Notes under the pieces: generated by a model
What the model was told of the DNA's origin: nothing
Database searches by the model: none
The model's input: only the letters and a program-made list of their open reading frames with translations
Position numbers and translations under genes: made by a program
Origin: Anaerostipes caccae L1-92
GTDB taxonomy: Bacteria > Bacillota > Clostridia > Lachnospirales > Lachnospiraceae
Length of the DNA: 64,000 bases
Direction of reading: 5' to 3'
Assembly (NCBI RefSeq): GCF_014467075.1
Contig: NZ_AP023027.1
Span: 2,049,501 to 2,113,500, forward strand
In this document: piece after piece, positions 20,864-63,686 of the stretch
Layout: every line of letters starts with the position of its first letter
Position numbering within the stretch: position 1 is the stretch's first letter

Positions 20864-23800
20864 CTAAAGTTTTCTTCTCTTTCTATACAGCAGCGCCATT
20901 ATAACAATACTTATTCCCATACGCCCTGCACTATTAAAAGTCATAGAATCTTCTGTTTTCGGCAGAAATTTTGATTTTTTGCTGCTGTTATTCGTAACAC
21001 TCAGTGACCCTCCCACATCTGCGGACTCCTTCCACCCCGCGTACAAGACCCTGTTTTCTGTGATGATATCCTCATTAAAATTCCATTTATCTTTACATTC
21101 CTTTTGTTTATACCAGCCTGTAAACGAAAAACCTTTTCTGTTCGGAGTATGCGGAGCCTGAATGTGATCACCATATTTAATATTTTTTATACTCGGCACG
21201 CTGCTGCCGCCCCGGCTGTCAAACACTACCTCGTACCGTTCTTCTTTTGGTGTCTGTATTTGCGGATCCTTCCCTGAAATTCCACTGTCCTTATAGGCGA
21301 TCGCATAGACAGAGTATTGATCACTGTCCACTGTAACTGTAGCGTCGCTGTCGTCCTGATCCGTCAGCAGTTCTGCTGTTATCTTTCCGTCCGCCTTATG
21401 TGCTCTTATGATAAAAAATTCTCTTTCGGCTCCTGACTGAGGAGCTCTGATTTCTTCCGGTATATCAAATACAATACGGATTGGAGAACGCAAGACTGAC
21501 AGGTCCTCTATCGTTTTTTTATTATTTTCCACAACGGTCTTTATTACTCGGATATCCATATTTTTATATATAGTGGCTCCGTGAAGCTGTCCCTCTATCG
21601 CTTTTGCTTCTCCCCGATCCGGTCTCGTATCTGCGGCCACTACTTCAATTTTAAAGCTTCTGTCATTTTGATAAAGCTTCTGTACATCCGCGGAAGTCAT
21701 ATTATCCAGAAGCAGAGACTGATCGTTCAGCTGCAGGTTGCCGCTCACTTCGGTCTGCACCTGGGGCAGGCTTAAAATTGCTTCTCTCAGCTTTTTCTTC
21801 GATGCCTCCGGAACTTCTTCCTGTGATGTTTCCGGCAGAGCATCAAAATGCTGTTTCGCATCCAGAATCGAAATTTTTTCTTCCTCATTCAAAGGCTTTC
21901 CGCTGGCAGCCTGCGGCAGCTGATCTGCAATCTTCTTCATATCTGCCGCTGACAGTGGAGCAAATACTGCACTGATCTCATAGTCTGACTGAATATTATG
22001 AAGCGTATAAACATCATTTTCAATCTCTCCGGTTACATCTCGGCCATTCATGCTGACAGATTTAAGCCGATAACCCGCATCCGGTTTAATTCGAAACTCA
22101 GTCAGGCTTCCCTGCGCAGTCTCAAACTCGCCTTCCGGAGTGATGTGTCCGTGTTCTGCTTGATGCACTGTGGCTTTGAATACTTTTCCATCCACCAGAT
22201 TCAGCACTGCTGTACCAGATTTAGAGGCATAATTATAATTTCCGTCCGTATTTTTATCCGGCACAAAGGTCCATCGGTACTCTTTTTTTCCAACCTCAAA
22301 GATCTGGTCTTTGTCCCAGCTTATAGTACCCTTGGTATCTCCTTTTGAGAGAGTAATCTGAGGCATACCTTCCGAGATATTTGTCATTCCTTTTGGATAT
22401 ACAGGATTCACTTCCGGTTCAGCCTGTCGCAAATGCACCGTAAAATCATGATCAACTGTATAGAACGGAGTTGCTTTCGTGCCATTTACAAGACACGCCT
22501 GAACACGAACACCGCACGAAATAGGGAATCTTGGTTCCCTGACATCTGTCACATTATAAGTATTCTCATCAAAGCCTTTTAAAACTGCCGAAGATGATGT
22601 GATCGTTCCCCATGACCATGTATAATAAAACACTACATCCCCTGTTTTCGCCTTCCCTATGGGCTTTGCCATCGGGTGTTCCGCCGTCACTTTTAACGCT
22701 GCCGGTTCACCGTCATATACTTTATCAATTCCGTCTCCGAAGGTAATGACCGGATCTTCCAGTGCACTGATGGGATACAGTTTCTCCTGCTTTATAATAT
22801 CCGTTTCAGACACCGGGCTGACTGCATTTTCTGTGAGCCCCCACTTTTTCCCCTGTATCTGCGGAAACCTGTATGTACTGTCTGCACTCCACACTCCCTG
22901 ATCATCTTTCGTATAATTATAGGGAAGGTTATACAGCCGATCAATCGGTTCAGCACTTCCTCCGTTTACAAAACTGACAGAAATTTCATATCCTGTCTTT
23001 TTGCTGAACTGAGATCCTAATGTACTGCAAACCACACTGAAATCCTCTTTATGACACACGATTGCCGTCAGTTTGCTGTTTGAGAACGTGCCGAACGTAC
23101 CCGAGTTGATAAACGCTGTATTGCTTTCATCCGTCCTTTTTGGCAGATAGATCGTTTTTAAATTAGTGGAATCAAATACATTTCTTCCTATCTTTTGGAC
23201 AGAAGGCGGTATCACAACCGCGCCGTTCAGACCGCAGTAACGGAAAACAGAATCCGGTATCTGAGTCAGCTTGTTCCCCTCAAATTCAACCGATGTTATC
23301 TTTTTATTTCCGGAAAAAGCAACGGAACCCAAACTTTCAACACTTGCCGGTATTGTCAGCTTCCCTGAGAAACCGACGAGGCTGCTGTCGCTGATCTTAA
23401 ATGCATTTGACCCGATGGAGGTTACTTGATCGGGTATCTGTAAAGTTCCTCCAAGTCCCACATCAAAAAATGCGTAATCTCCGATCGTCTTTAAATTCCC
23501 AGGAGCACAAGTGTTCCGGTAAATCCGGTACATCCCCGAAAAGCACTGTTGCCGATCGCCGTCACCTTAGAAGGTATTTTCAGTGATCCGCTTATGCCGG
23601 AAGCTCCGTAAAATGCATTCTCTCCAATACTGGTAAGCCCTGATGCATTTGAAAGATCCAGGCTTACGAATCTGCACCCTGAATACTTTGTATTATAACT
23701 GAGTTTAAAAGCATCTTTTGCAATCGATGTTACCGTCTGTCCGTTGATCGTACCCGGAATCACCAAATGAATATTCTGTTTCTGCTCATCTGTCAATCCG

Positions 23801-29577: not shown

Positions 29578-30774
29578 TTATTCTGCGTCCGGTATACTCG
29601 GGATATTCACGGAAGGGTCCAGATCTTTTTCATAATCCACTCCGTCCATATGAAAGCCAAACATCTGGTAAAAGTCTTCCCAGTATCCCTCAATATCGGC
29701 ATACTCCCTGACATTTTCTGTATTGATCTTCTCCCAGCGCCGTTCCACTTCTGCCTGTACTTCCGGCTTTAACTCCCAGTCATCCAGACGGATCAGCCCC
29801 TGACCGTCTGTCTCTGCCTGTCCAAACACAGCCTTTTCTCCGAACAGCCTGGTAATCTGTTCGATGCATCCTTCGTGGAGTCCTTTTTCCTTCATGACAC
29901 TGTAAAGCACCGCCATATACAGGGGAACGATCGGAATTGCAGAACTCGCCTGAGTGACGAGACCCTTGTTGACCGAAATATATGCACTGATTCCATTTTC
30001 TTTAAATTCTTCACTGATCTCACCTGCAGTCTTGTGCAGATGTTTCTTTGCAGCGCCGATGGTACCCTCAAAATAAATGGGATAAGTGAGTTCCGGTCCG
30101 ATATAAGAATAGGCGAATGTAACAGCGTCCTCTTCAATGGCATCGGCATCTGTGAGGGCCCGAATCCATGCCTTCCAGTCCTCTCCGCCCATCACCTTCA
30201 CCGTCGCTTCCACTTCTTCCTCTGTGGCAGCCTCGATGGTTTTCTCTCCGATGGTATTGTCTTTCAGATTCAGATTCTTATTTGTAAAATCTTCTCCTGT
30301 CGTCTTTAGCACAGACTGGTACACGGTGCCGTCTTCGGCCGTTCTTCTCGGTGCTGCCAGACTGTAAATGACGGCGTCGACTTTTCCCAGATCTTTCTTA
30401 ATCAGATCGATCACCTGATCTTTGACTTCCTTTGAGAATGCATCGCCGTTGACTGTCTTGGCATACAGATCCTCATTGGCTGCCGCATGCTCAAATGCAG
30501 CTGTATTATACCAGCCCGCCGTAGCAGTCCTCTTTCCTGCAGCCTGTCTCTCAAACATGACGCCGATCGTAGCAGCACCGCATCCGAATGCCGCGTTGAT
30601 CCTTGATGCCAGTCCGTATCCGGTGGACGCTCCGATGATCAGGACTTTCTTTGGCCCGTTCTTAACTTCACTGTGCTTCTTTACATATGTAATCTGATTC
30701 TCAACGTTTTTTTGGCAGCCCTCTGGATGTGCGGTCAGGCACAAAAATTCCCGGACTTTTGGACTTATTTTCAT
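29578..30774 (-). CDS. fabV: Trans-2-enoyl-CoA / enoyl-ACP reductase (FabV/TER)
   Basis: 398 residues, typical length. NADH-dependent reduction of trans-2-enoyl thioesters, for fatty acid synthesis (FabV) or crotonyl-CoA reduction (TER). Cofactor motif VLIIGASTGYGLASR (about 45-58); catalytic Tyr234 and Lys243 in the Y-x8-K pattern YFEGTIGAAK. A classical AAGGAGATATACAT site precedes the ATG and a perfect promoter drives it. In a butyrate-forming Lachnospiraceae either role is possible; sequence alone does not separate them. Confidence 0.92.
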   Translation of the reverse strand: MKISPKVREFLCLTAHPEGCQKNVENQITYVKKHSEVKNGPKKVLIIGASTGYGLASRINAAFGCGAATIGVMFERQAAGKRTATAGWYNTAAFEHAAANEDLYAKTVNGDAFSKEVKDQVIDLIKKDLGKVDAVIYSLAAPRRTAEDGTVYQSVLKTTGEDFTNKNLNLKDNTIGEKTIEAATEEEVEATVKVMGGEDWKAWIRALTDADAIEEDAVTFAYSYIGPELTYPIYFEGTIGAAKKHLHKTAGEISEEFKENGISAYISVNKGLVTQASSAIPIVPLYMAVLYSVMKEKGLHEGCIEQITRLFGEKAVFGQAETDGQGLIRLDDWELKPEVQAEVERRWEKINTENVREYADIEGYWEDFYQMFGFHMDGVDYEKDLDPSVNIPSIPDAE

Positions 30775-30814: not shown

Positions 30815-30843
30815 ATTATAATCGTTCCTCATTCCACTGTCAA
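30815..30843 (-). promoter_or_regulatory. Consensus promoter of fabV
   Basis: Minus-strand TTGACA (30838-30843) and TATAAT (30815-30820), both perfect, with a 17-base spacer, 40 bases upstream of the start. Confidence 0.93.
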
Positions 30844-30856
30844 GTTTCCCCAATAT

Positions 30857-33433
30857 TTAGGAAAGCCTGCTGGCCATCTTGTCAAACAATTCATTCAAAT
30901 CGATCGGCTTATTGATATGGTCATCCATACCACTCTGCCTGCTTTTCTCCATATCTTCAGCAAACGCATTTGCCGTCATAGCAAAGATTGGCACAGTCCC
31001 TGCGTCCGGCCGTTCCAGGGAACGAATCTTGCGGGCAGCTTCATAACCGTCAAGGACAGGCATCTGTATATCCATAAGAATCAGATCAAAAAATCCCGGA
31101 TCTGAAGCGTTAAAGATGTTCAGTGCTTCTTCCCCGTTCTCAACTGCAGTTACTTCTGCACCGGACATGGCAACCAGTTCCACCGCGATCTCCCTGTTTA
31201 TTTCATTATCTTCTGCAATTAATATATGTCTGCCTGTAAAGTCGTGCCGCGCTTCTCTCTTAGACTGCGGCGGATTGGCCGGATCTGTCATTCTTATCGA
31301 CTCAAATGCCTGCGACAGCGTCGTTTCAAATAAAGGTTTGCTGATAACCCCGACTGCTCCCGCTTCCTTCGCCGCCTCTTCAATCTCCCCCGGATCATAG
31401 GCAGTGATCAGTACGACAGACGTGCATTCATTTCCTACAATGTTTTGTATACGGCGTGTAGTCTCCAGCCCATCCAAGCCCGGCATTTTCCAATCCACAA
31501 AACACACATCAAAATCCTCGCCTTTATTATGAGCCTGTTCTACACGTGATACGGCATCATATCCATTATCCGTCCATGCAGAACGAATCCCCATATTGTT
31601 AAGGAGCAGTGAGACATGCTCACAAGTGACCATATCATCGTCTGCGACCAGAACTCTCAGTTTTCCATAATCAACGGCCGGAGCTTTTTTCTTCTCTGAA
31701 ATCTGAAATGGGATATCTGCCGTAAAAACACTGCCTTTTCCAACTTCACTGTTCAATATCAGACTGCCGCCCATCAATGAGGCAAAACGCCTGGAAATAG
31801 ACAGTCCCAGACCCGTGCCTCCATATTTCTGTGCCACATCTGATGTTTCCTGTTCAAAAGCATTGAATATTTTTTCCATATTTTCCGGTGCTACGCCGCA
31901 TCCGGTGTCCTCTACCTGAAATCTGAACCAAACCAGCTCATCTTCTTCTCTTAATTCCTGAATTCTGAGCGTCACATTCCCGCCCTCCGGTGTAAACTTA
32001 ATAGCATTGGAAAGCAGATTTGTAATAATCTGATTCAATCTCAAAGAATCTCCTATCAATTCTTCCCGCACTTCTCCAATCAGAATCGTGTCAAAATTCA
32101 ATTTTTTGGACACGGCCTGAGCATAGTAAACCGTCGTCAAAGATTCAATGAAAACCTTAAAGTCGAATACTTCGTTTTTGATCTCAATCTTACCGCTTTC
32201 AATCTTTGACATATCCAAAACATCATTGATAAGTGCCAGGAGATGTTTTGAGGAAAGGCTGATCTTTTTCAGACAGTCGCTGATCTTCGCCGAATTTTGA
32301 AGATTTTGCCCGGCAATCAGCGTCATGCCGATAATGCCATTCATTGGTGTCCTGATCTCATGAGACATTCTTGAGAGGAATTCGCTCTTTGCCAGATTTG
32401 CCTTTTCCGCATGTTTAAATGCCTCCTCCGCCCTGTTTTTCTCTGCTGCCAGAAGCTCTGCGTTGCGCCGGATCAGATGAATGTACACCAGAGAAAAGCC
32501 CATAATGAGAGCCGTTATAAACAATACAGCCGCCACTGTACTGCGGGACATAAACCCACTGAGAGATTCAATCTGTGAATCTACCCCTCCGGAACGCATC
32601 GTCACGCATACCGTCCATTCGGTTTCCGGAATAGGACCGTAATAGACATATTCATGTACTCCGTCAATCGAAAGCGCTGCCATTCCCTCTCTGCGGCCGG
32701 AAATCTGATCCTGCATTTTTTTGAGAGAGAATCCCTTGTCAAGAACGGCCCTGTTCTCCAGCATTCCAAAATAATTCACACCTGCCCGGGTCTAAGCTCC
32801 CTTGGCGGAACGCATAACAAATGCACCCTTTTTCGATATGACATCAGCATAAGAATTCGTATTGTCCTTGTGAAGAACCAGTTTTTCACTGAGTATATGG
32901 GTATCCATTCCGACCAAAACCGCGGTAATCTGCTTCCCTCTGAATTTAATATCAGAAACCGGAGTTCCAAGTAAGATCATGTCGTCTCCAAGAATCGTTT
33001 CATTGGAAGAAATTAATCTTCCCTTTCCGCTTAAAAGCGTATCTAAAGAGTTGATCTTTGATATGGCTGAGTAAACATCATCAGGAGTATAGCACATACC
33101 ATCGCTGTCCAGCACGGCCACATAGGAAAATCGATTGTTCTTCATCTGTTTTTTCAAAAACCGCTGCAGCGAATTCAAGTCTTTCAGGTCAGCTTCATTG
33201 ATACTGTCCACAGTCGTGACGATCTGGGCAAACTGGCTGTCCAGACTCGTCTTCAAATGACCTACCGTCTGACTGCTCAGCTCACTCAGATAAGCTTTGC
33301 TGATACTGGAAACAGTGTCATCTGTCCGGCTCTGGAATTTTTGCAGCATAAAGAACATCAGGAAAGCACAGATTAATATCAAAATGAACGCCGGCGCACT
33401 GCTTCCCATATGCCTGCTTGATTTTTTGGCCAT
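30857..33433 (-). pseudogene. Membrane hybrid histidine kinase (extracellular sensor, two receivers), split by an in-frame TAG
   Basis: From ATG 33433 (GGGAGGAAG site) a membrane kinase of about 858 codons can be read, but codon 214 is TAG at 32792-32794 and the same frame continues open after it. Order: TM1 (about 14-33), Cache-like extracellular domain (about 40-300) interrupted by the stop, TM2 (about 301-320), coiled coil, HisKA with FLSRMSHEIRTPMN (His about 358), HATPase (N box LLSNAIKFTPEGG, GTGLGLSI), receiver 1 (FVDWKMPGLDG) and receiver 2 (LMDIQMPVLDG). Without suppression the sensor half ends before the kinase. A GTG at 32779 might restart the kinase half. It lies in one operon behind the SBP fusion. 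Confidence 0.82.
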
Positions 33434-33444
33434 AAACTTCCTCC

Positions 33445-35415
33445 CTAATCGTCATTGATGTCTGTAATACGCCCCTCGGCTTTGACAGCTTCCAAAGCAT
33501 CCGCATGTTTCTGAATAAAATTTTGCATAGCATCACGGTAAGTACCCACATTTTGTTTTACCGGCGTAACACCTTTTGCTTTCGGGTCTTTTTCACTGAA
33601 AAGATTGAGCATCGTATATCCGTCGCCGTTGCCCTCTAAATATCCTTTGGAACCTGCCATATAATCTGTGATCGCCACAGTATAGTCTTTCTTGTTCTCG
33701 ATGTTTGTCCCATCCTTCAGCTTTGCATCTAAAAGTCTGTGTCCGACCGGCTTGGCGCTGTCATAAGTGAATGTGATACCGGATACCTGCAGGAATCTTC
33801 CTCCCGGAATTCCACGGCTGCCGTCAATTTCGGATAAACTGTGCTCCAGCATCTCCCTGAGCACTGAACCTGTCATTTTTACTACAAGAATCTGGTTATC
33901 AAAAGGACATACTGCCTTCAGATCATCTCCAAGAATATTGCCTTTGTATAAGCTTGCCCGGATTCCCCCTCCATTTGCCACGGCAATCGGAGCATCAGAA
34001 TAATCGGCAATACTGTCGGCCACGAGATTTCCAAGAATCGTCTCCTTCAGCCGAGTGTTATAATTCTGATAAATAAAATCTTTCGGGGAGGTACCCACAA
34101 CCGTAAGGTCCTGATCAGCCTCCTTTGATCCGTTAAGATAGTAATCATCCACAGCCGCCAAAACATCTTTTACACTTTTTTGTCCACTCAGATATTGTGT
34201 TCCCTGCAATCCCAGATACTCCACCACTTTCCCCGGAAATTTTACATAATAGACGTATCCGTCCTTAACTGTGCTCTCAAGTCCGGAAGGAGCTTTACTG
34301 TCACTTCTGTCAAATTGCTTTAAATAGGAGTTATCAAGCCTTAAATCTTTCATGAGCGCTTCCTGCCCTTTTTGAGTAGAAATAATATCCATTACCTTAA
34401 GACAGGCATCCATCTTTTCTTCATTACCCTCCTTTTTCAGAGCTGAATTAAGTCCAACATAGCCTGCCGGAAGCGTCAGCGTCCAATTCTTTGTTTTCTT
34501 TTCTCCCAGGAAAGGGAGCATTACATATTCATACTTTTTACTAGTCCCCGCTTTCACTTCTTTTTCATTCATCTGCCGGCACTCTTCAAGAAATGCCGAA
34601 CTTCCATAGGCTGCGATCATTTTCCCTCTGCCCATATAGATTGTATTGTTGATCAAGTTGCCCTGCTTGCGCAGAGGCTCCAGGTTCATCAGATCCTTTT
34701 TCTGTAACTGTTCAAACAAAGAAAATGCTTTTTCCCATGTACCCGTCATCTTCCCTTCCTTTTTTTCATAGGCGGCCAGCCACTTTACCCCTTTTGCATT
34801 CCCCAAAAACTCAGGTGTTATACAGCCCGCAAGAAAGGTTCCGATATTTTCATTTGTCATTTCTCTAATGCCAAAAACGTGTCCGGTATCAGACAGGCCA
34901 ATCTTTTTCTTACGGAATTATTCAAGATCCGATACTAGCTCCCGATTATTTTTTGGCAGACTAAGACCTGCTTCCTCAAATAAGGTCTTATTGATCACAT
35001 AGCAATTATACTGTCCCGGCATAGGCAGGTAATAAAGCCTTTCATTTACTGTCAGATTTTTCAGCATAGTGCTCTCATAACGGTCACTGAATTCATATCC
35101 GTCCAGAGGAAGCACATCCGCTGAGCTCTCCTCATCTGCCGGCTGGGTGGAGACAACCAAATCCGGGCCATGTCCGGCTTTTAACCGCCGTTTGATCGTA
35201 GTGCTCAGCGGACTGGAAGCCATATGTTCCCACTGCAGATCTACATCAGGAAGTTTACTTTCCACATATTTTTCAAAATTATTTAACTTTTGATTATAGA
35301 CAAGTGTCACTACTGTCTTCTTTTTGCTCTCATTGCTTTTCTTTAAACTGCACCCTGTAAATATAGAAGTCAAACATGCTATGCTTAATATGACCGCCAA
35401 TACTCTTCTTTTCAT
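33445..35415 (-). pseudogene. Lipoprotein fusing a solute-binding domain to a 5'-nucleotidase C-terminal domain, split by an in-frame TAA
   Basis: ATG 35415 overlaps the upstream kinase stop (ATGA). Lipobox IFTGC at about residue 21. Residues about 35-420 read as an ABC-type solute-binding protein (GHGPDLVVSTQPADE; AGLSLPKNNRELVSDLE). After codon 165 there is TAA (34918-34920); the same frame continues as FRKKIGLSDTGHVFGI and the rest of the fold (TLTLPAGYVGLNSALKKEGN). Residues about 453-640 are a 5'-nucleotidase C-terminal domain: LGNLVADSI, ANGGGIRASLY and GNGDGY. The metallophosphatase domain is absent, so binding of nucleoside or nucleotide rather than hydrolysis is inferred. No ABC permease is near; the neighbours are kinases, which suggests a sensory role. 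Confidence 0.8.
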
Positions 35416-38400
35416 TTCCTCCGTTTCTGTTCTCCGGAAGTTTCCAGTTCCTTTCCTGATTCATCCAAAACCTTCTGCAGTGTGTTCATAAGTACATTTA
35501 AATCGATAGGTTTTGCTATATGGGCATTCATCCCCGCCTGAAATGCGTTCTGAACATCCTCATTAAAAGCATTGGCCGTCATGGCAATAATCGGTATCTC
35601 CTCCGCATCCTCCCGCTCCATTCCTCTGATAGCGCGGGCGGCATCATATCCGTTCATCTTAGGCATCTGGATGTCCATGAGAATGGCATCATATGTTTCC
35701 GGCTCTGTATCCTGAAATGCCTTTACCGCCTTAGCTCCATCCGTCATGAGCACAGTTTCTGCTCCGCAAAGTCCAAGCAGTTCACAAAGTATTTCTGCAT
35801 TAATGGCGTTATCCTCGGCCACCAGAAAACAGCAGCCGGAAAATGCCCTTTTCCCGGAAGAAAGGCTGAATGACGGCTCTGCATTCTTTATATAAGAACT
35901 GTTTTCTGCCTGTGCCCGGTCAAACTCTAATTCCACTCTAAAAACAGATCCCTCATTGATCCAGCTTTCCACAGAAATTTTTCCACCCATCAGATCAATC
36001 AGTCCTTTTGTAATGCTGAGACCAAGCCCTGTCCCCTCAATATGCGCCGCATTTCCGCTGCGGCTGAACGGCTCGAAGATTTTGGAAACAAACTCCTCCG
36101 GCATGCCGATCCCTGTATCTCTGACCGTAAAATGGTAACTCACACGCCCGGCTGATCCTTCTGTTTCAACTTCTTCTGCCAGCAGTTCCACCATGCCTCC
36201 CTTATTTGTAAATTTTACAGCATTGCTCAGCAAATTAATAAGGATCTGATTGATGCGGAGAGGATCTCCATAAAAATCTTCATGATTCACCCCTTCCGCC
36301 CGTATGCTAAGTGTAAGGCCTGCTTCCTCTGCCTGAGATAAAATCATAACAGAAAGCTGATCCAACAGTTTAGGAATAGATACCTTCGAGAGATTCAAAG
36401 TGATCTGTGCCCTCTCAATTTTGCTCATATCCAGAATATCGTTGATCAGGCTGAGCAGGTGCCTTGAAGACACTTCTATCTTATCCAGATATCCGGCCAC
36501 CCGTTCATCGTCACCAAGATAGGCGGATGCCAGTGTTGTCATCCCCATAATCGCATTCATAGGGGTCCGGATATCATGGCTCATAGCAGAGAGAAAATCA
36601 CTCTTTGCTTTATTGGCTTCTTCTGCCGATGCGAGCGCATGTTCCAACCGTTTTTTCGCCTGTCTCTCCGCAGTCAGCATTTCCGTCACATCCGCCCTCA
36701 CCAGGCAGAGTGTCCTATGATTTACGTCTCCCCACAGGACATTGATCTGCTTAAAACGTTCCCCGTTATCTCCTTCATAGGAGAACAGAAAATCATAACC
36801 GTTAGGCTTCTCTCTGAGGCGCTCCGTCATTGTCTCAATCCTAAACTGTGTCCGTGCTTCTTCCTTATGTTCTGAAGTACCGTGGTGCTCAACAAATTTA
36901 AGAATTGTCCTGTCGTAGTTTTCTACATAATGGGGCTGTAAATTGTCAAGTACGCTCTCCCTCGTATATAATGTCAGGCTTCTGCTGCTTAAATTAATGA
37001 ACGCAGCCAATTCAAATGTATACGCAATCATATGGAGCAGTCCCTGCTGCTCCCGGATGGAGTCTGTGATATCGCTTCTGGACAGGCAGACCCTGCCAAG
37101 TCTCAGATCGACGGCTGAAACTGTCATGTTTTTTGTTCTGATATCCCCTTTATCATCCGAGATGCAAAAGGCAAATGTATACGGCCCGTCTTTTTGAAGC
37201 CTGCTCATCATTTTTTCCGGTTCCAGCCCGTTCTTATACTGCTCCCGGTCTCTTGGGACAACCCTTGACCGCAGCATATAGGCGGTCCATTCGGAATGTC
37301 TGCCCCTATGCGGCGGAACACAGAATGCATTCTCACTGCAGGAAAGCAATTTATAACGGTCTGCGGTCAGATCAACATCGACAACAAAATCACATCCTGT
37401 CACTGACAGCTGCCTGAGGATCAGATCCGAAATCTTCCGCTCGGTGATATCCGTTACCGTCAGAATCCCTGTGATATCTCCGCTGTCAGGCGCTGCTACC
37501 ATATTCATATTAAATTGTACATATCTGCCCCTCTGATCCTTCGGCAGGCGGACAAAGCACTCAAGCTTCCGCTCTAAGTCTCCCCGCTCAAAGGCCTTTA
37601 GAGACGGCTCATTTAAAAATGTCTCCCGGAATGTTTTCCGTTCTTTCTCATCCGTCACCAGACTTGAAAGGCCCATAAAAAAACATTCTCTGTCGTCACT
37701 GAAGGTTTCCATCAGATCCGAACCGGTATAATCTAAAATATCGAGAATCCTGCTCTTCGTGACATTGCAGTGCCCCACGACCAGTGCATCGGGACCGGGA
37801 GTCCGGTAATGCTTCAGAAGCAGGTCTTTATACTGATTCCTGATCCTCTCCTGCTCTCTCACCGTCTGTGTGATATCCTTAACATACTGCACATAGGCGG
37901 GAATTCCATTCCAAACTGTTTTGTGGCAGCGGGCGCTGTACACCCTGTCTGAGCCGGGAATCTTTATCTCATGTTCTTCGCTTCCGGGTTCATATTGTAT
38001 AATGTTGCAGTATTCACAAGGACTGTCTTTACCGTGGAGGACTTTAAAACATTTTTGACCGGTACATTCCTTTTTTTCCATAAAAAGATTTAAAGATTCA
38101 TTTGCATAGAGCAGTTCAAAGTTCGATCTGTCAATCACATAGATGCCGTCGGCCGTTTCATTAGCAATCTCCTGAAACAGCCTGGCCTCAGCAGACATTC
38201 CGGTAAACACGGCATAAAATCTCATCTTCTCCGCCAAAGGCCCCATGCGCCGGCCATTTAAATGAATCCAGATCAGATTTCCATCTTTATGATACATCCG
38301 ATATGAGACGTCCAGCACTTCCCCGCTTATAAGAGCAGTTTTTGCGGCTTCCAGCACTCTCTTCCTGTCTGGCTCATAAATAACATCAAATGCATTGCGC

Positions 38401-39326
38401 CGGACCATTGCTTCAAATTCCATCCGTGTATGGCCTGAAATCATCATCACACCGTCAGAATAAAACTCGGGTATGAATCGTTCCCCTTCCACCCGATAGC
38501 TGGCAATCCCTCCCGGTATAGAGTTAATCAGATGTTCCTTCTCCAGCTGAGCTTCTTTAAGATCGGTAATATTATGAAATACACAGAGCACAAGCGGGCA
38601 CCCATCTTCTTCTCCAATCCACTTCATTTGTACATGGACCCAGACAATCTGCCCATTCCGGTGCTTTTTGCGGAATTCAAATTCTGAAGTTCCTTTTGTC
38701 TGAACCACTTCCCCTGCCTTGGAGATGATCATTTCTCTGTCTTCACGGCAGGTCATCTCAACAGCGTCCCTTTTGATCAGCTCCCTGTATTCTAAAGCTG
38801 AATATCCGGATAACTCCGATACACCGTCCGAAAAATATACGGTCTCAAAGAAATCAGATACTTTGTAGATCGCCACGCCTCCGGGAATCAAATTTATAAT
38901 ATCCTGCATCTGTTCATTGGAACGGACCAATTCCTCTTTCAGCTGTATCTGTTCACTCACATCTCTGTAAACAGCATAAAAGAGCACGCTGCCATCTTCA
39001 CCGTGCTCTGCGGACCCATCGATATGGACCCACCGGTATCTTCCCTGATTGTCATTAAAAATACGGCAGGTATGTGATAATGCCGTGCCCTTACGCAATA
39101 ATCTGTTTACTTTTTCCTTCACTTCCGGAAGGTCTTCCCTGTGTATTCCCTGAAATGCCGTCTCCCGGCTTATTTCCCCGGTATACTCCTCAAAACAGCC
39201 TAATGTTTCATAGAATGAGGAGTTGCGGAACACCGGATAAATCCGACCTTCTTTATACAAATACACACACACTCCGCCTGGAATCATCTCCAGGGCCTCC
39301 TGGACCTCACGCCTTATCTTCTCCAT
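35412..39326 (-). CDS. Large soluble multi-PAS hybrid histidine kinase
   Basis: 1304 residues from ATG 39326; an ATG at 39359 adds 11 residues but has no ribosome site. No transmembrane segment. At least four PAS/PAC units span about residues 5-510 (repeated IPGGV/IPGGI openings and VHIDG/WIHLNG endings), with further PAS-like domains to about 880. One PAS has a C-x4-C-x10-C-x2-C cluster. HisKA has FLSAMSHDIRTPMN (His917), HATPase has LLSNAVKFTNKGG and GTGLGLSI, and a C-terminal receiver has Asp1218 in LMDIQMPKMNG. First gene of an operon with the SBP-nucleotidase lipoprotein and a second kinase. No DNA-binding output regulator is present. The ligands of the PAS domains are unknown. Confidence 0.9.
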   Translation of the reverse strand: MEKIRREVQEALEMIPGGVCVYLYKEGRIYPVFRNSSFYETLGCFEEYTGEISRETAFQGIHREDLPEVKEKVNRLLRKGTALSHTCRIFNDNQGRYRWVHIDGSAEHGEDGSVLFYAVYRDVSEQIQLKEELVRSNEQMQDIINLIPGGVAIYKVSDFFETVYFSDGVSELSGYSALEYRELIKRDAVEMTCREDREMIISKAGEVVQTKGTSEFEFRKKHRNGQIVWVHVQMKWIGEEDGCPLVLCVFHNITDLKEAQLEKEHLINSIPGGIASYRVEGERFIPEFYSDGVMMISGHTRMEFEAMVRRNAFDVIYEPDRKRVLEAAKTALISGEVLDVSYRMYHKDGNLIWIHLNGRRMGPLAEKMRFYAVFTGMSAEARLFQEIANETADGIYVIDRSNFELLYANESLNLFMEKKECTGQKCFKVLHGKDSPCEYCNIIQYEPGSEEHEIKIPGSDRVYSARCHKTVWNGIPAYVQYVKDITQTVREQERIRNQYKDLLLKHYRTPGPDALVVGHCNVTKSRILDILDYTGSDLMETFSDDRECFFMGLSSLVTDEKERKTFRETFLNEPSLKAFERGDLERKLECFVRLPKDQRGRYVQFNMNMVAAPDSGDITGILTVTDITERKISDLILRQLSVTGCDFVVDVDLTADRYKLLSCSENAFCVPPHRGRHSEWTAYMLRSRVVPRDREQYKNGLEPEKMMSRLQKDGPYTFAFCISDDKGDIRTKNMTVSAVDLRLGRVCLSRSDITDSIREQQGLLHMIAYTFELAAFINLSSRSLTLYTRESVLDNLQPHYVENYDRTILKFVEHHGTSEHKEEARTQFRIETMTERLREKPNGYDFLFSYEGDNGERFKQINVLWGDVNHRTLCLVRADVTEMLTAERQAKKRLEHALASAEEANKAKSDFLSAMSHDIRTPMNAIMGMTTLASAYLGDDERVAGYLDKIEVSSRHLLSLINDILDMSKIERAQITLNLSKVSIPKLLDQLSVMILSQAEEAGLTLSIRAEGVNHEDFYGDPLRINQILINLLSNAVKFTNKGGMVELLAEEVETEGSAGRVSYHFTVRDTGIGMPEEFVSKIFEPFSRSGNAAHIEGTGLGLSITKGLIDLMGGKISVESWINEGSVFRVELEFDRAQAENSSYIKNAEPSFSLSSGKRAFSGCCFLVAEDNAINAEILCELLGLCGAETVLMTDGAKAVKAFQDTEPETYDAILMDIQMPKMNGYDAARAIRGMEREDAEEIPIIAMTANAFNEDVQNAFQAGMNAHIAKPIDLNVLMNTLQKVLDESGKELETSGEQKRRK

Positions 39327-39417
39327 CCACAGCACCGCCTTTGTTACTGCTTTCCACATTGGACAGGAATAAAAATTCTTATCCCGGCACCAACTCTGTC
39401 CATATATATATTAATTA

Positions 39418-39533: not shown

Positions 39534-39995
39534 TTATTTAAAAATTCTTCTTACTGCGACGATCTTTCTGTATTTTGCATTCTTGGAGATCTTGATTCCC
39601 CCTCTGGGATACGGTGCAGAGTTGCTTGCGTGGACAATTTTATTTTTTCCCATATAAATTGCTACGTGTCCGCTGTAACAGATGATGTCTCCCGGCTTCG
39701 CCTTCTTGATTCCGCCTTTTACTTTCTTTCCTACTTTTCTCATTCCGTAAGAAGAGTGCGGAAGTCTTTTTCCGAATTTTCTGTAAACAGACATTACATA
39801 TCCGGAACAGTCGGCTCCTCTCGTCAAACTGGTTCCGCCATATCTATATTTATTACCGACAAAGCGTTTTGCATAATTCACAACTTTCTGCCCTTTATTG
39901 GAAGCAGCTTCTGTCTCTCTTGTTCCGCCGATCGCTGAACATCCCACTACAGTGAGCATTATGACTACCATTGCTTTTACTACCAAACGTTTCAT
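39534..39995 (-). CDS. Secreted NlpC/P60 cysteine peptidase
   Basis: 153 residues: signal peptide (lipoprotein-like VVGCSAIGG, Cys about 19), then an NlpC/P60 domain over most of the chain. Catalytic Cys in GADCSGYVMSVYRKFG, His in GHVAIYMGKN, and the third polar residue in HASNS. It hydrolyses peptidoglycan stem-peptide bonds (D-Glu to diamino acid). The mature protein is strongly basic. It has its own promoter and terminator. Confidence 0.92.
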   Translation of the reverse strand: MKRLVVKAMVVIMLTVVGCSAIGGTRETEAASNKGQKVVNYAKRFVGNKYRYGGTSLTRGADCSGYVMSVYRKFGKRLPHSSYGMRKVGKKVKGGIKKAKPGDIICYSGHVAIYMGKNKIVHASNSAPYPRGGIKISKNAKYRKIVAVRRIFK

Positions 39996-51015: not shown

Positions 51016-54000
51016 TTATCGGATTTTTACTTTGATTTTAGCATAGGACCGGGAACCATCCTTTGCCTTGGCATAGATCGTAACCGTCTTTCCTCTGCCC
51101 GCCTTCTTCGCCTTTACTACGCCCTTTTTAGAAACCGTGGCGTATTTGCTCTTACTCGTCTTCCATGTAACCGACTTCTTTTTGCCAACTGTCTTTACTT
51201 TTGCTTTGAGACGGTATTTATCTCCGGCTTTGAGAGTCAGTTTTTTCTTATTCAGTTTCACCACAGTCTTTTTAAATACTGCGGACACGGTTACATTTCC
51301 CGTGATGCGGAAGGAATAGCTGCTACCTTTCACCTTTTTGCCTGCTGCTTTCATAGTGGAAGGCTTATAGCAGTAATATTTTGCGGCCTTCGGCTTTACC
51401 GTTACCTTCTGCCCCGGCAGGTATCCTCCTTTTCCGGAGATAGTTCCATGCTTAGTTTTTGCTTTTACCGTCACAAGCCCGGAAGTTACAGGATAAGAAT
51501 ACACCGTACAGCTGTCGTCATAATCCTCGTCGTCTACATCGCTCTGTGCTTTGGCCTGAACCGATGTCTTCTTCCTGTTTAAATTTTTATAATCGAAATC
51601 TTCCTGCTCCGTCACAGGCATGAAGAGAAACCTTGAGCCAACAGTGGTTCCTATGAGATCTTCTTTAAAGGCTGCCTGATAGTCCATGGCTTCAAAACGA
51701 TCTTTGGAAACAGAATACCGGAACACATTTCCGCAGCCGTCTGTATTAAGCCCCACGTAGGCCAGACCATCTCTGCATACGCCCACAATGGCCGTATAGA
51801 TCTCTTCGCCCTTATTTTTTGGTATCAGAGAAGCTGATTTTTTCACCCATTTCCTGCTCTTATCGCTGTAAACAAGATTCTTTGGAATCTCCCCTTTCTT
51901 TCCGCTGCTGCCCAGGGTAAGGATCAGCTGATTTCCCGACTGGACGGCCACACTCTGGCAGCGCCCTTCCGGAAGTCCCGGGGCTTTGGACCACTGTTTT
52001 TTCTCCTTGTCGTAACAAAAGACACTCTTTTCCATAGCTCCGGTCTTTTTATTCCGGCCTCCGATCACATAAATCTTCCCATTGTAGGCGGTCAGAGCTG
52101 ATCCCTCCAGTTTGGCCCCGCCTGTTTTCGTCACATAGGAGTCAACTCTCGACCACGATTTCGTCTGAAATGAGTAGCTCACAAGAGATCTTTTTGTCTC
52201 ATATCCCAAATCCGCCTCGGCTATCGCATAGACAGCCCTGTCACAGTAGACCGGTGCTGAATCCAGACTGAGATCTGACCGGTCCAGTTCTCCCTTCTTT
52301 ATGCCTGCAAATGCTTTCTCCCGTGCCATAGAGGATATTCTGGAAAATTCCTGTTCCTCCTCATCCATCACATAAAGATTCAGCTCTTTGTCCAGATAAT
52401 ACATCTTCCTGCCGTCGGAGACTGCACCCCCGCCGTCTGTAATATCCTCGGCTGAAAAGACTTTTTTCGGCCCGTTTTTACCTTTTATAAAATAAAATGA
52501 ACCAGTGACAGATTTTCCGCTGCCGGTCAGGATCTCGACTTCGCCCACCCGGTTTACTAACTGTCTGTTTTCCAGAACGATCTTTGTATCACTCCAGGAT
52601 ACTGCCTTTTCTGCCTTACCGTTGACCTTTACAGTACCTCCAGTTCCGAATCCTTTCCCTGAGAGAACGACTCTGCCCCCGGAAACTGCTGCGCCGGTGA
52701 GGATTGCATTCTGATCAGACAGCTTCCTGCCGTCCAGAACTCCCCTGGTAATCACGGGCAGATCCTTCACTGTTCTTGTCATTCCAAGGACTGTCTCCCT
52801 GTTGGAGAGTGCATCCTTCTTCCCATAGTACCAGGAAGTGTTTGCCACCGCACCGCTCACCAGAGGGGCAGCCATGGATGTCCCGCTGGAAAAATCGTAT
52901 TTCCCGAAATCCCGGCTTAATACACCTGCCTTGCTGACTGCAGTGTCATCCAGACGGATCGTAAAATCCTGCTTCTCTAATACTACCAGTGAAATACCAA
53001 CCGCACGCTTTTCATTCTTTGTTGTGCTGCGGGTTGGATAGGACAGATGTCCCCATACATCCGACTCGCCGTTGGCTGCCATCATAGGGATCGTACCCGT
53101 TATCATGTTTATGGTGACATCTTCCGACGTCAGAGGATCTTCGATCTGACCTTCTTCATCCAGCTTATAGTCCTTTGCCATGACCAGTCCGGCCCCGTCT
53201 TCCACTGCCAGACTGCTGGAAGCCTTGAGCATCGTGCTCAAATAGGAATCTGTGCTGCCCTTGGCGCTGTCATAAGGAAGATATACCGTATAGATATCTC
53301 CGGGCTCTGCATTCTTCACTGAAATCTTCGCTGACTTTCCGGCAGATTCTTTTCCAAAATAGTCACTGTCCTCAGAAACCGCCACCGTACCTTTTCCGAT
53401 GCTGCCTGATCCCTCTGTCTTAATCTCTGAGACATCACCGTCATTATAGTTTTTATAAAACTGGCAGTTTGAATTTCTCTCCCCGTCACTGTAAATCGAA
53501 GGATTAAAACAGTCTTCATTGACCGTAGACAAAATCTGATTTCCCGGCGCGGCCATATGTACAGACTCTTTCCCATAGTTTGAATAGGACGCCAGTCCGT
53601 CTTTCTCATTGGATGCCGCAACCGATATCACATAATCGCTGTCAATGCCTGCCGGAATGGATGCGTTCCCTTCATTGTCCTCACTGTCGTTTCCGGCGGC
53701 ACAGACTGTCACCGCCCCTTTCTTTCCTACAAGTTCGATCAAATATTTCATCAATTCCTGTTCGTCAGCCTCATCGATTCCCCAGGAATTGTTTATAGCC
53801 GCCACATTGACACCTTCCATCTGCTGCTTATAGATGTAATAATAGGCATCGATCACGTCAGATAATTCACCGTCTCCGTCTTCGTCCAGCACCTTCAGTG
53901 CCATCAGCTTAACATCGCTGCTCTGGCTGATACCCGCAACGCCCCTGCCGTTGCCTGCCTGAGCCGCAATAATACCGGCACAGTGGGTTCCGTGACCGTA

Positions 54001-54681
54001 ATCATCGGAAGGATCTGCATCATGGTTGACAAAATCATAGCCATGTCTGCCGTAGAGCACATCTGACCTGTTTGTCCACAGCCTGTCTCTGAGATCCTCA
54101 TGTTCAAGGTCAATTCCTGTGTCAACTACCGCCACAACCGTTTCTTTGCCTTTGGACCCGGATGTCTTGTCATAAAACTGATCATAGCCGACATCCTTCC
54201 CTGTACTGCCTCCATTCTGACCGCTGTTTTTATTTGCCCACTGAAAGTCAAAATAGGGATCGCTGCCTCCCAAAATCCTAATCTTATAATTGGGCTGTGC
54301 GGCAATCACCTGCGGATCCTTCTTCAGCTGTCTGACCAGATCCTCCGTGCTCTTTTGTGAAGTCACTCTGGCAATGGAAACTGCGGAATTCTGAGAAGCG
54401 CTCCTCGTCTTCTTTTTGGTATCCGCCGAAAAGTTCCAGGCCTGCTTAACCTTTATTCCGGAGGAAAAAGGAGCGGATCTGCCCTTTTGCCCTGATGCCG
54501 TCGTCCGGTACATGACCAGTGCTTCTCCCTCCTCATATCCTGCTTCCTGTCTGCCGGAAAGCAGCTTTTTCATCTCTGTCACCTGGTCTTTGCCGGAAGC
54601 CGCGCTGACCGCAGCGGGAGCCGATGTTCCCAAAAGAACCGCCGACATCAGCCATGCTGCCCATCTTTTAAAATACCTCAT
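51016..54681 (-). CDS. Secreted subtilisin-family serine protease with Kelch, InlB-like and Big2 domains
   Basis: 1221 residues from ATG 54681 (AAGGAGAGAG site). Signal peptide ending about ASA-29, then an inhibitor-like propeptide (to about 135). Peptidase S8 catalytic triad: Asp187 (VVDTGIDLEHED), His230 (DDYGHGTHCAG), Ser602 (FSSGTSMAAPLVSG), with oxyanion Asn in AINNSWG. A long insert separates His and Ser. After the catalytic domain: an IPT/TIG-like stretch (about 645-735), Kelch-like repeats (FCYDKEKKQWSKAPGLPEGR), an InlB/Flg_new-like repeat near 1070-1140, and a C-terminal Big2 domain ending AKIKVKIR. No sortase signal. Likely a surface protease held by binding modules. Confidence 0.9.
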   Translation of the reverse strand: MRYFKRWAAWLMSAVLLGTSAPAAVSAASGKDQVTEMKKLLSGRQEAGYEEGEALVMYRTTASGQKGRSAPFSSGIKVKQAWNFSADTKKKTRSASQNSAVSIARVTSQKSTEDLVRQLKKDPQVIAAQPNYKIRILGGSDPYFDFQWANKNSGQNGGSTGKDVGYDQFYDKTSGSKGKETVVAVVDTGIDLEHEDLRDRLWTNRSDVLYGRHGYDFVNHDADPSDDYGHGTHCAGIIAAQAGNGRGVAGISQSSDVKLMALKVLDEDGDGELSDVIDAYYYIYKQQMEGVNVAAINNSWGIDEADEQELMKYLIELVGKKGAVTVCAAGNDSEDNEGNASIPAGIDSDYVISVAASNEKDGLASYSNYGKESVHMAAPGNQILSTVNEDCFNPSIYSDGERNSNCQFYKNYNDGDVSEIKTEGSGSIGKGTVAVSEDSDYFGKESAGKSAKISVKNAEPGDIYTVYLPYDSAKGSTDSYLSTMLKASSSLAVEDGAGLVMAKDYKLDEEGQIEDPLTSEDVTINMITGTIPMMAANGESDVWGHLSYPTRSTTKNEKRAVGISLVVLEKQDFTIRLDDTAVSKAGVLSRDFGKYDFSSGTSMAAPLVSGAVANTSWYYGKKDALSNRETVLGMTRTVKDLPVITRGVLDGRKLSDQNAILTGAAVSGGRVVLSGKGFGTGGTVKVNGKAEKAVSWSDTKIVLENRQLVNRVGEVEILTGSGKSVTGSFYFIKGKNGPKKVFSAEDITDGGGAVSDGRKMYYLDKELNLYVMDEEEQEFSRISSMAREKAFAGIKKGELDRSDLSLDSAPVYCDRAVYAIAEADLGYETKRSLVSYSFQTKSWSRVDSYVTKTGGAKLEGSALTAYNGKIYVIGGRNKKTGAMEKSVFCYDKEKKQWSKAPGLPEGRCQSVAVQSGNQLILTLGSSGKKGEIPKNLVYSDKSRKWVKKSASLIPKNKGEEIYTAIVGVCRDGLAYVGLNTDGCGNVFRYSVSKDRFEAMDYQAAFKEDLIGTTVGSRFLFMPVTEQEDFDYKNLNRKKTSVQAKAQSDVDDEDYDDSCTVYSYPVTSGLVTVKAKTKHGTISGKGGYLPGQKVTVKPKAAKYYCYKPSTMKAAGKKVKGSSYSFRITGNVTVSAVFKKTVVKLNKKKLTLKAGDKYRLKAKVKTVGKKKSVTWKTSKSKYATVSKKGVVKAKKAGRGKTVTIYAKAKDGSRSYAKIKVKIR

Positions 54682-54883
54682 ACTCTCTCCTTTCCCCTGC
54701 TTGTATCTCATTGTTAGAGTATAACATACCTTCTCATTACGTTTGTTACATTTGGTTTACAATTCTTTAAACCCCGTTTTCCCCCAGAAAAGCAGCAGGC
54801 AAATAAAAAGATTTTCTTTTTTCGGCACACATTGGAAGAGACCGAATAATATAAACTGTAAATATAATCAAGGAGGAAACAAC

Positions 54884-62639: not shown

Positions 62640-63686
62640 TTATGGCAATGGAGATGATCGTTCTACTGTAAGAGTAGCATTTGTCAATGAAGTCAGATCA
62701 AAGCCTGCGGCTCCGGTGGAATAAAACGCCAAATCAATTTGGCCGTCCAGGAATTCAATGACGCTTCCCTGCAAGATTGTGATATCATCTGCAGAAATTG
62801 TAGTGTATTGCAGCGTGGAGTCAATAAATCTGCCGTTTTGCCGCACTCCCGCCGAAATTGTCTGGCCTGCTGTTTCAGCCGGATCGATACGGATCATATA
62901 ATTGATTTCATATTCGCCCGGCATATAAATTTGTATTTCATTTTGGCCCGCTCCAACATTAAAAGATGGCATATAATTGTTAAATTGTACCTGTTCCACC
63001 TGGTCACTGACAGAAAAATCAAATGATTGAACCATGTTGGAATAAAGACCGCCGAACGCAGTTTCCACTGCCTTACCATCTATTTCGACAGTGGCTGGAT
63101 AATCATGCAAAAATATATTCAGATTTGGAGATATAAAGTTTAAATCCTCTCCAAACCTGATAGGTATGGGACCGCCGTTGCCATTAATATAAAACAAGAC
63201 ATCCCCCGGATTAAAGGTGCCTTCCGGCCCTTGTTCTCCCTGTGGACCTTGTTCTCCCTGCGGACCCGGTTCTCCCTGTGGACCTTGTTCTCCCTGCGGC
63301 CCTGATTCTCCCTGCGGACCCGGTTCTCCCTGTGGACCCGGTTCTCCCTGCGGACCTGATTCTCCCTGTGGACCCGGTTCTCCCTGCGGACCCGCTTCTC
63401 CCTGCGGACCCGGTTCTCCCTGCGGCCCTGGCATCCCCTGTGGACCCGCTTCTCCCTGCCGACCCGGTTCTCCCTGCGGCCCTGGCATCCCCTGTGGGCC
63501 TGGTTCTCCCTGCGGACCCGGTTCTCCCTGCGGACCCGGTTCTCCCTGCGGCCCTGGCATCCCCTGTGGGCCTGGTTCTCCCTGCGGACCCGGTTCTCCC
63601 TGCGGGCCTCGGCAGCATCTGCAATTACAGCAGTCACAGCAATTCTTTTGAAGTTTTTCGTTTTTACAGTTACTGTTTATATTCAT
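62640..63686 (-). CDS. Collagen-like surface protein with Cys-rich N-terminus
   Basis: 348 residues. N-terminal 26 residues are Cys-rich ([11 protein letters not shown]) without a signal peptide. Residues 27-158 are 44 uninterrupted Gly-X-Y triplets built from a six-residue unit GPQGEP with variants GMP, GEA, GES and GEQ. The C-terminal about 190 residues form a beta-rich globular domain reminiscent of BclA/TNF-like exosporium domains. AAAGGA precedes the ATG. Such proteins form trimers and, in spore formers, hair-like exosporium layers; a spore-surface role is inferred, not shown. The Cys cluster might anchor or cross-link trimers. Confidence 0.9.
63213..63608 (-). repeat. 18-base minisatellite coding for the Gly-X-Y repeat
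   Basis: Twenty-two tandem 18-base units encode the collagen repeat (6 residues each). Unit sequences are near-identical, so length variation by slippage is expected. Confidence 0.92.

Follow-up and report, generated by a model that had tools for sequence, protein, structure and literature searches.

A conserved gene pair of a solute-binding/5'-nucleotidase-tail lipoprotein and a Cache-type hybrid kinase, each interrupted by a stop codon in Anaerostipes caccae L1-92

We analysed a stretch of 64,000 nucleotides from Anaerostipes caccae L1-92 (contig NZ_AP023027.1, positions 2,049,501 to 2,113,500; hereafter the window), whose minus strand carries, between an NlpC/P60 gene and a trans-2-enoyl-CoA reductase gene and in this order, a soluble hybrid histidine kinase (HK1), a lipoprotein in which a solute-binding protein (SBP) is joined to the C-terminal domain of 5'-nucleotidases, and a membrane hybrid kinase of the Cache type (HK2). 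The original prediction, made from the sequence alone, read these three genes as one sensory operon. The conserved unit is the gene pair of the lipoprotein and HK2, with HK1 outside it. We consider it probable that this pair is a conserved two-gene co-receptor in which the lipoprotein acts on HK2, that HK1 is independent of it and that the copy in the window is a decayed one. The features of the pair are as follows.

33445..35415, minus strand: lipoprotein gene (SBP and 5'-nucleotidase C-terminal domain, class 1), interrupted; two open reading frames (ORFs) in one frame
34918..35415, minus strand: N-terminal piece of the lipoprotein, 165 amino acids, with signal peptide/lipobox and the start of the SBP
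34918..34920, minus strand: in-frame TAA within the SBP domain, also counted by the genome search
33640..34101, minus strand: PF02872 (5_nucleotid_C) in the C-terminal piece, residues 254-407 of the 471-amino-acid ORF, E 9.8e-37
30857..33433, minus strand: HK2, membrane Cache-type hybrid kinase with two receivers, interrupted; two ORFs in one frame
32792..32794, minus strand: in-frame TAG within the extracellular Cache region of HK2

The lipoprotein and HK2 as a unit

Relatives of the lipoprotein were sorted into class 1, with a strong match to the window's protein, and class 2, roughly 21-30% identical to it and with SBPs of 590-684 amino acids (one cut at 506); their loci were taken from the listed matches of genome searches together with locus L002. 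A dCache hybrid kinase gene with receivers lies directly downstream of the class-1 lipoprotein gene in 14/14 of the first loci and in 4/4 loci of a class-wide sample, all of the latter from other families, so that HK2 directly follows in 18/18 class-1 loci in total; it follows as well in L046, a locus outside the 18 in which the lipoprotein is cut by the contig end. On the other hand, none of 20 ordinary nucleotidases from the same searches, all 20 of which carry both Metallophos and PF02872, has a transducer neighbour. A scarcity of hybrid kinases beside homologues of the fusion was one of two tests named against the original prediction, and the reverse was found; the other, a nucleotidase-like part that does not match PF02872, also came out in its favour, at the E value given above. 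Furthermore, 15 of the 120 lipoprotein entries listed share the size of the longest contig with one of the 120 HK2 entries listed (e.g. 11067, 8980 and 561450), which would follow from the two members of each pair lying together on a contig.

Class-2 proteins have a hybrid kinase or a GGDEF-EAL protein as neighbour in 40/45 cases, the transducer being on the same strand and within 250 bases, and kinases stand on both sides of the protein in 7/45. Six SBPs shorter than 560 amino acids were excluded (L089, the second in L091, L092, L096, L097 and L137), three of which are truncated where the fetched sequence stops; L126 (506 amino acids, contig end) was retained in class 2, and L140 gave no SBP match. 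As to distribution, a class-1 match is present in 14/397 genomes of the family sample (in fragments in G220) and, at E up to 1e-60, in 6/391 genomes of the class sample, the window's genome being included in both counts. Among named relatives, the commensal Diplocloster agilis (L003) carries an intact pair.

HK1 lies outside this unit. Its sensor part gave no match at 40% coverage in 22 loci, for which reason HK1 was rejected as a partner of the pair elsewhere, and another genome of the genus (G720) has HK1 without the pair; the proposed three-gene set does not, therefore, stand as a unit. A hybrid kinase is found just before the pair in 2/18 class-1 loci (L168 and L170), and its candidacy as an HK1 relative was also rejected, since it belongs to the SBP_bac_3 type of hybrid kinase and resembles HK1 only in its kinase and receiver regions. 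The order in these two loci, which come from another family (L168:5949-13659 and L170:5342-12795), is hybrid kinase, lipoprotein, HK2, and the first kinases are 96% identical. L093, L094, L098 and L117 share another gene order: first a 271-amino-acid protein, identified as SBP_bac_3 in the single case examined (L094), next a hybrid kinase, then a long SBP whose 5'-nucleotidase tail has diverged, and last a dCache hybrid kinase. A similar order recurs in L095, where a receiver-HD gene is interposed.

Gene neighbourhoods bear also on the possibility that the lipoprotein serves chiefly in uptake or scavenging and that the kinase does no more than regulate this uptake, without contact between SBP and kinase. 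This is in line with the SBP fold, which is closest to sugar-transport binding proteins. However, unlike the SBP genes of ATP-binding cassette (ABC) importers, the class-1 genes are not beside permease genes: two permease queries, which may miss remote types, found none in the fetched flanks of 14/15 class-1 loci and of 4 more, some of these flanks being short, and in L036 a permease is five genes away from the lipoprotein. Two SBPs of ordinary length from the same searches do adjoin permeases (L092 and L137; a third, in L089, adjoins a hybrid kinase), and proteins with the C-terminal extension have a transducer gene beside them also where this gene encodes a GGDEF-EAL protein. An uptake role thus appears unlikely to us. 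If the co-receptor reading is true, gut Clostridia would possess a widespread sensor recognisable by sequence, namely an SBP of ~590-680 amino acids with a 5'-nucleotidase-derived tail, adjoining a dCache receptor.

Two stop codons and the state of the window's copy

The N-terminal piece of the lipoprotein matches SBP_bac_1 (E 4.7e-8) and has a hydrophobic segment at residues 4-25 and a lipobox-like FTGC read in the sequence. The 471 amino acids that start at the next ATG after the TAA have no hydrophobic segment and therefore no signal peptide. Metallophos (PF00149) was matched by Pfam neither in the window's pieces nor in the intact relative P0003. The domain composition originally proposed, an SBP with a nucleotidase C-terminal domain and no phosphatase domain, is thus borne out, whereas the single uninterrupted gene is not. 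Likewise, HK2 consists of 213 amino acids, the TAG and a further 640, and in the latter piece, which has a single hydrophobic segment and a possible GTG start, Pfam finds HisKA, HATPase_c and two stretches of Response_reg. Here the kinase and the two receivers stand as predicted, the uninterrupted gene does not, and the Cache match is weak in the window (dCache_1, E 0.041, below the cut-off). Many full-length relatives are annotated with PF02743, PF00512, PF02518 and PF00072, and in the relative P0122 dCache_1 reaches E 1.9e-5, below the Pfam cut-off. The predicted structure of an HK2 relative has a predicted local distance difference test (pLDDT) of 83.5 and a predicted template-modelling score of 0.47.

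Similarity to intact relatives is the same before and after each stop, at 61-64% identity to the 656-amino-acid proteins P0003 and P0004 for the lipoprotein and at 65-67% to P0122 and P0123 for HK2, so that the lesions look recent. In protein searches the window's 471-amino-acid piece is the representative of a 139-member cluster, and the next best matches are full length (655-678 amino acids) and 58-62% identical; for HK2, a 635-amino-acid piece represents a 110-member cluster and the next match is 67% identical with 873 amino acids, leaving aside the 424-amino-acid partial match P0142. The nearest database entries are the cut ORFs, and identity drops to 62% and 67% with the first intact proteins; this suggests that the species as a whole carries both stops. 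With one nonsense codon in each gene, no complete lipoprotein could be made and HK2 would be deprived of the greater part of its sensor; the window's pair is therefore most likely a recently decayed remnant, dead or dying, and no second intact copy was found by the search of this genome. An in-frame TAA counted in G860 was discarded, being the gene's own last codon. Sensing through a lipoprotein co-receptor, as initially proposed, remains the best reading of the family, but the system is probably not working in the window's genome because both genes are interrupted.

Readthrough or suppression of the stops could in principle keep the system working here, given that the frame is the same after both of them, that other decay was not seen and that the codons just after the TAA are conserved. 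We judge this very unlikely, since two different stops are involved (TAA and TAG) and PylS gave no match over the cut-off in the genome but two weak ones below it, suppressor tRNAs not having been searched for. A pyrrolysine reading of the TAG was rejected, the two PylS_Cterm matches being far below the cut-off; in control genomes, such matches occurred in 13/14, over the cut-off in 1. Errors of sequencing or assembly in a single genome would explain one or both stops as well, and one genome of the species was searched; this genome is, however, a single contig of 3.59 Mb, cut ORFs represent both closest clusters, and no full-length near-identical protein is among the matches listed, which makes such errors highly improbable. 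There is little chance, too, that the truncated products serve new roles, the 640-amino-acid part of HK2 acting together with HK1 as a hybrid kinase devoid of its sensor, and what is left of the lipoprotein being of no consequence: this part of HK2 does keep its hydrophobic segment, kinase domains, receivers and possible start, but its translation lacks support and the database entry begins at another codon, that of the 635-amino-acid form.

Several points weigh against our reading of a conserved co-receptor with a decayed copy in the window. The class-1 and class-2 loci are a non-random set, and gene neighbours need not form a complex. By the 250-base rule, 5/45 class-2 proteins have no transducer neighbour: in L093 a split kinase gene comes after the protein, L088 holds two of the five on one contig of 5.4 kb, another long SBP stands between protein and kinase in L139, and the kinase is two genes away in L127. 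The 19 codons after the TAA, which belong to no separate ORF, are still 58-68% identical to relatives, and the stops are therefore recent or tolerated. The truncated HK2 retains the kinase domains and two receivers and might still be active, and the fixation of the stops was deduced from cluster representatives rather than from individual members. Finally, the predicted structure of P0003 is uncertain around residues 591-600 (pLDDT ~50), beside a presumed pocket position.

Signalling, ligand and known counterparts

In the mechanism that we propose for intact pairs, the lipoprotein would be anchored outside the cell, where its SBP and 5'-nucleotidase C-terminal domains, recognised by sequence like the lipobox, would bind an extracellular ligand. 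The lipoprotein, loaded or empty, would then contact the extracellular dCache domain of HK2 and set its kinase/phosphatase balance, as LuxP does with LuxQ; we infer this contact from the near-invariant pairing. Phosphate would pass through the receivers of HK2 to a regulator encoded elsewhere, and the neighbours of relatives suggest cyclic di-GMP (c-di-GMP) enzymes or a GntR-type regulator as the output. Genes for receiver-HD-GGDEF (L037 and L102), receiver-GGDEF (L043), HD-GGDEF (L038) and receiver-HD (L095) proteins lie near the pair. A protein of ~490 amino acids also stands beside the pair in L034 (4577-6064), L036 (12583-14043), L037 (12947-14401), L038 (4801-6267) and L102 (12802-14271); Pfam gives two separate GntR helix-turn-helix matches in the first four, where the protein adjoins HK2, and the one in L102, a class-2 locus, is like them by similarity only. 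In L047 (9078-13275) and L048 (9017-13225) class-2 lipoproteins stand beside dCache-GGDEF-EAL proteins, and these may be the same kind of co-receptor with c-di-GMP output. Together, these neighbours point to c-di-GMP or transcription as possible outputs in relatives.

With regard to the ligand, the lipoprotein tail was aligned to solved nucleotidases. Among 62 aligned class-1 proteins, R455, N481 and R486 (P0003 numbering) are kept in 62/62, position 505 is Y or F in 58 and H in 4, and position 600 is Y or F in 56 and N in 6. We take these five positions to match the substrate-site residues of CD73. Both CD73 and UshA combine PF00149 with PF02872, and in nucleotidases it is the C-terminal domain that binds the base (PMC8475336, in excerpt). 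Class 1 has this homologous domain with the substrate motif and aromatic positions kept, N-x-G-G-x-R being found in 14/14 and GDG[YF] in 11/14; unlike in UshA and CD73, an SBP takes the place of Metallophos, and the gene neighbours are sensors, which is not the case for the 20 ordinary nucleotidases. Two nucleotidases with SLH, Metallophos and PF02872 (L084:6445-8622 and L085:6292-8379) have the C-domain with the best class-1 score after the fusions. In class 2, either motif occurs in 0/45; the tail was recognised in 19/45 with the first profile and in 45/45 only once the profile had been rebuilt twice from these very sequences, a procedure that can overreach, and Pfam confirmed PF02872 in 4/5 class-2 proteins tested (L047, L048, L053 and L118, but not L051).

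The predicted structure of P0003 (pLDDT 87.1) has an SBP followed by the nucleotidase C-domain. Its SBP resembles stachyose-, raffinose- and maltose-binding proteins, hence oligosaccharide binders; the VIA-align 2 comparison of the whole model covered the SBP part only. The nucleotide-like ligand advanced earlier is thus plausible for class 1 only, because class 2 lost the nucleotidase motif, and the SBP fold is one seen in oligosaccharide binders. A sugar site together with a base site would suggest nucleotide sugars for class 1, as a guess, and the tail may also be a docking piece. A more far-reaching scheme, possible but rather doubtful, is that of a large and undescribed clostridial co-receptor class at the cell surface that arose from the substrate half of a 5'-nucleotidase fused behind a sugar-type SBP, which replaced the catalytic half. 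In class 1 both pockets would sense a nucleotide or nucleotide sugar and drive a dCache hybrid kinase, and in class 2, with the motif lost, the tail would be a dock for dCache receptors of several outputs (phosphorelay or c-di-GMP). Should the co-receptor reading hold, the substrate domain of an enzyme would have been taken over for signalling, and nucleotides or nucleotide sugars would be the candidate ligands of class 1.

It is established that SBPs, once loaded, activate receptors of several kinds, kinases and c-di-GMP enzymes among them (PMC9602780 and PMC6321045, in excerpt). In LuxP-LuxQ, TorT-TorS and XylFII-LytS, as in our pair, an extracellular binding protein acts on a membrane sensor kinase (excerpt of PMC6321045). 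Differing from these three, the window's SBP is of the SBP_bac_1/8 sugar-binding kind with a 5'-nucleotidase C-terminal domain, the SBP of the family is a lipoprotein and the class-2 partner can be a dCache-GGDEF-EAL protein. LuxQ and TorS are hybrid kinases too, and the genes of SBP and kinase are neighbours. The family resembles the LuxP/LuxQ type in that the binding-protein gene adjoins the kinase gene and the kinase has an extracellular Cache region and receivers; the intact genes of that type are missing from the window's genome, owing to the TAA at 34918-34920 and the TAG at 32792-32794. Compared with the SBP-dependent c-di-GMP receptors mentioned in the excerpt of PMC9602780, the class-2 proteins of L047 and L048 likewise pair with dCache-GGDEF-EAL, whereas every class-1 partner seen in the examined loci is a hybrid kinase. 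The dCache_1UR sensors (PMC12415202, in excerpt) are also dCache sensors of gut bacteria and recognise a nucleobase, but bind uracil directly, whereas in our pair the lipoprotein would presumably be the first to bind. Eukaryotic glutamate-family receptors have SBP_bac_1 or, in one Capsaspora protein, 5_nucleotid_C outside the cell; these belong to another kingdom and have another output, and the excerpt of PMC3251606 does not report both domains in one protein. PMC8477406 was rejected as a description of the fusion, as the domain words stand in separate table rows of its excerpt. In searches of open-access journal papers, neither the listings nor the excerpts gave a description of an SBP fused to PF02872 in a sensor. 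The assertion that no such set had been described holds to this extent, but SBP-activated kinases as such are known, and the family is best read as a variant of SBP-dependent sensing that we did not find described. Database annotations already reveal this combination of domains, through the names "extracellular solute-binding protein" and "5'-nucleotidase C-terminal domain-containing protein".

HK1, the flanking genes and the genus

The remaining features of the locus, whose protein domains were assigned by Pfam (NCBIfam, run too, gave no family over its cut-off among the matches listed for the ORFs), are the following.

39534-39995: NlpC/P60 gene, flanking the HK1 side
35412..39326, minus strand: HK1, soluble multi-PAS hybrid histidine kinase, uninterrupted
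30815..30843, minus strand: promoter-like site of the reductase gene, TTGACA-17-TATAAT, 12/12 match, used as a breakpoint marker
29578-30774: trans-2-enoyl-CoA reductase gene, flanking the HK2 side

HK1 has 1304 amino acids from the start codon used in database entry P0241 (a longer ATG lies at 39359), with PAS_3, PAS_9, HisKA, HATPase_c and one Response_reg, and contains no 19-residue segment with a hydrophobicity of 1.6 or more; it is the full-length representative of a cluster of 208 members. Both the soluble multi-PAS kinase and the ATGA overlap of its stop codon with the ATG of the lipoprotein gene agree with the original prediction, and HK1 is probably an independent intracellular PAS sensor, intact in the window. 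Also as predicted, no ABC permease, other permease or DNA-binding domain is matched by Pfam in any of the five ORFs of the set; no response regulator gene was seen adjoining it, and no RNA family reached its gathering score in the window. The single promoter, on the contrary, is unproven. The best candidate upstream of HK1 (39402-39375) matches the consensus at 9/12 positions, and promoter-like matches are nearly as frequent in shuffled sequences (21 in this region, against a mean of 15.9 and a standard deviation of 4.1). A terminator-like hairpin of 18 pairs (39519-39477) lies between HK1 and the preceding gene.

Among 11 genomes of the genus, only the window's genome has the class-1 lipoprotein, three others (G718, G722 and G723) have class-2 proteins, and HK1 is found at E up to 1e-100 in the window's genome and in G720 only. 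The flanking genes in G720 (L116) match the window from 24157 to 47914 in the same order, the last gene being cut by the end of the stretch; an 889-amino-acid gene at window 20864-23533 has no counterpart there. In L116 the reductase gene is immediately preceded by HK1, here of 1463 amino acids, with neither lipoprotein nor HK2 present; the significant tblastn matches of HK2 in this locus fall within HK1. The promoter-like sequence of the reductase gene comes right after HK2 in the window but right after HK1 in G720, and in the alignment with L116 the HK1 stop codon of G720 falls within the -35 box. We therefore read the arrangement in G720 as a probable deletion scar, the pair having been present earlier and now being lost in the genus. 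The alternative is that the pair was inserted in the window's lineage instead of being deleted in G720. If deletion is the right reading, the window's genome shows such a receptor in the course of being lost, with stops in one species and absence in a congener. The HK1 of G720 (L116:8480-12871) has ~133 extra residues that the window's HK1 lacks.

Elsewhere in the window, 51016-54711 encodes a protein of 1231 amino acids with a subtilase domain, Kelch repeats and a Big_2 domain, and 62640-63686, close to the window's end, encodes a protein with three collagen triple-helix stretches.

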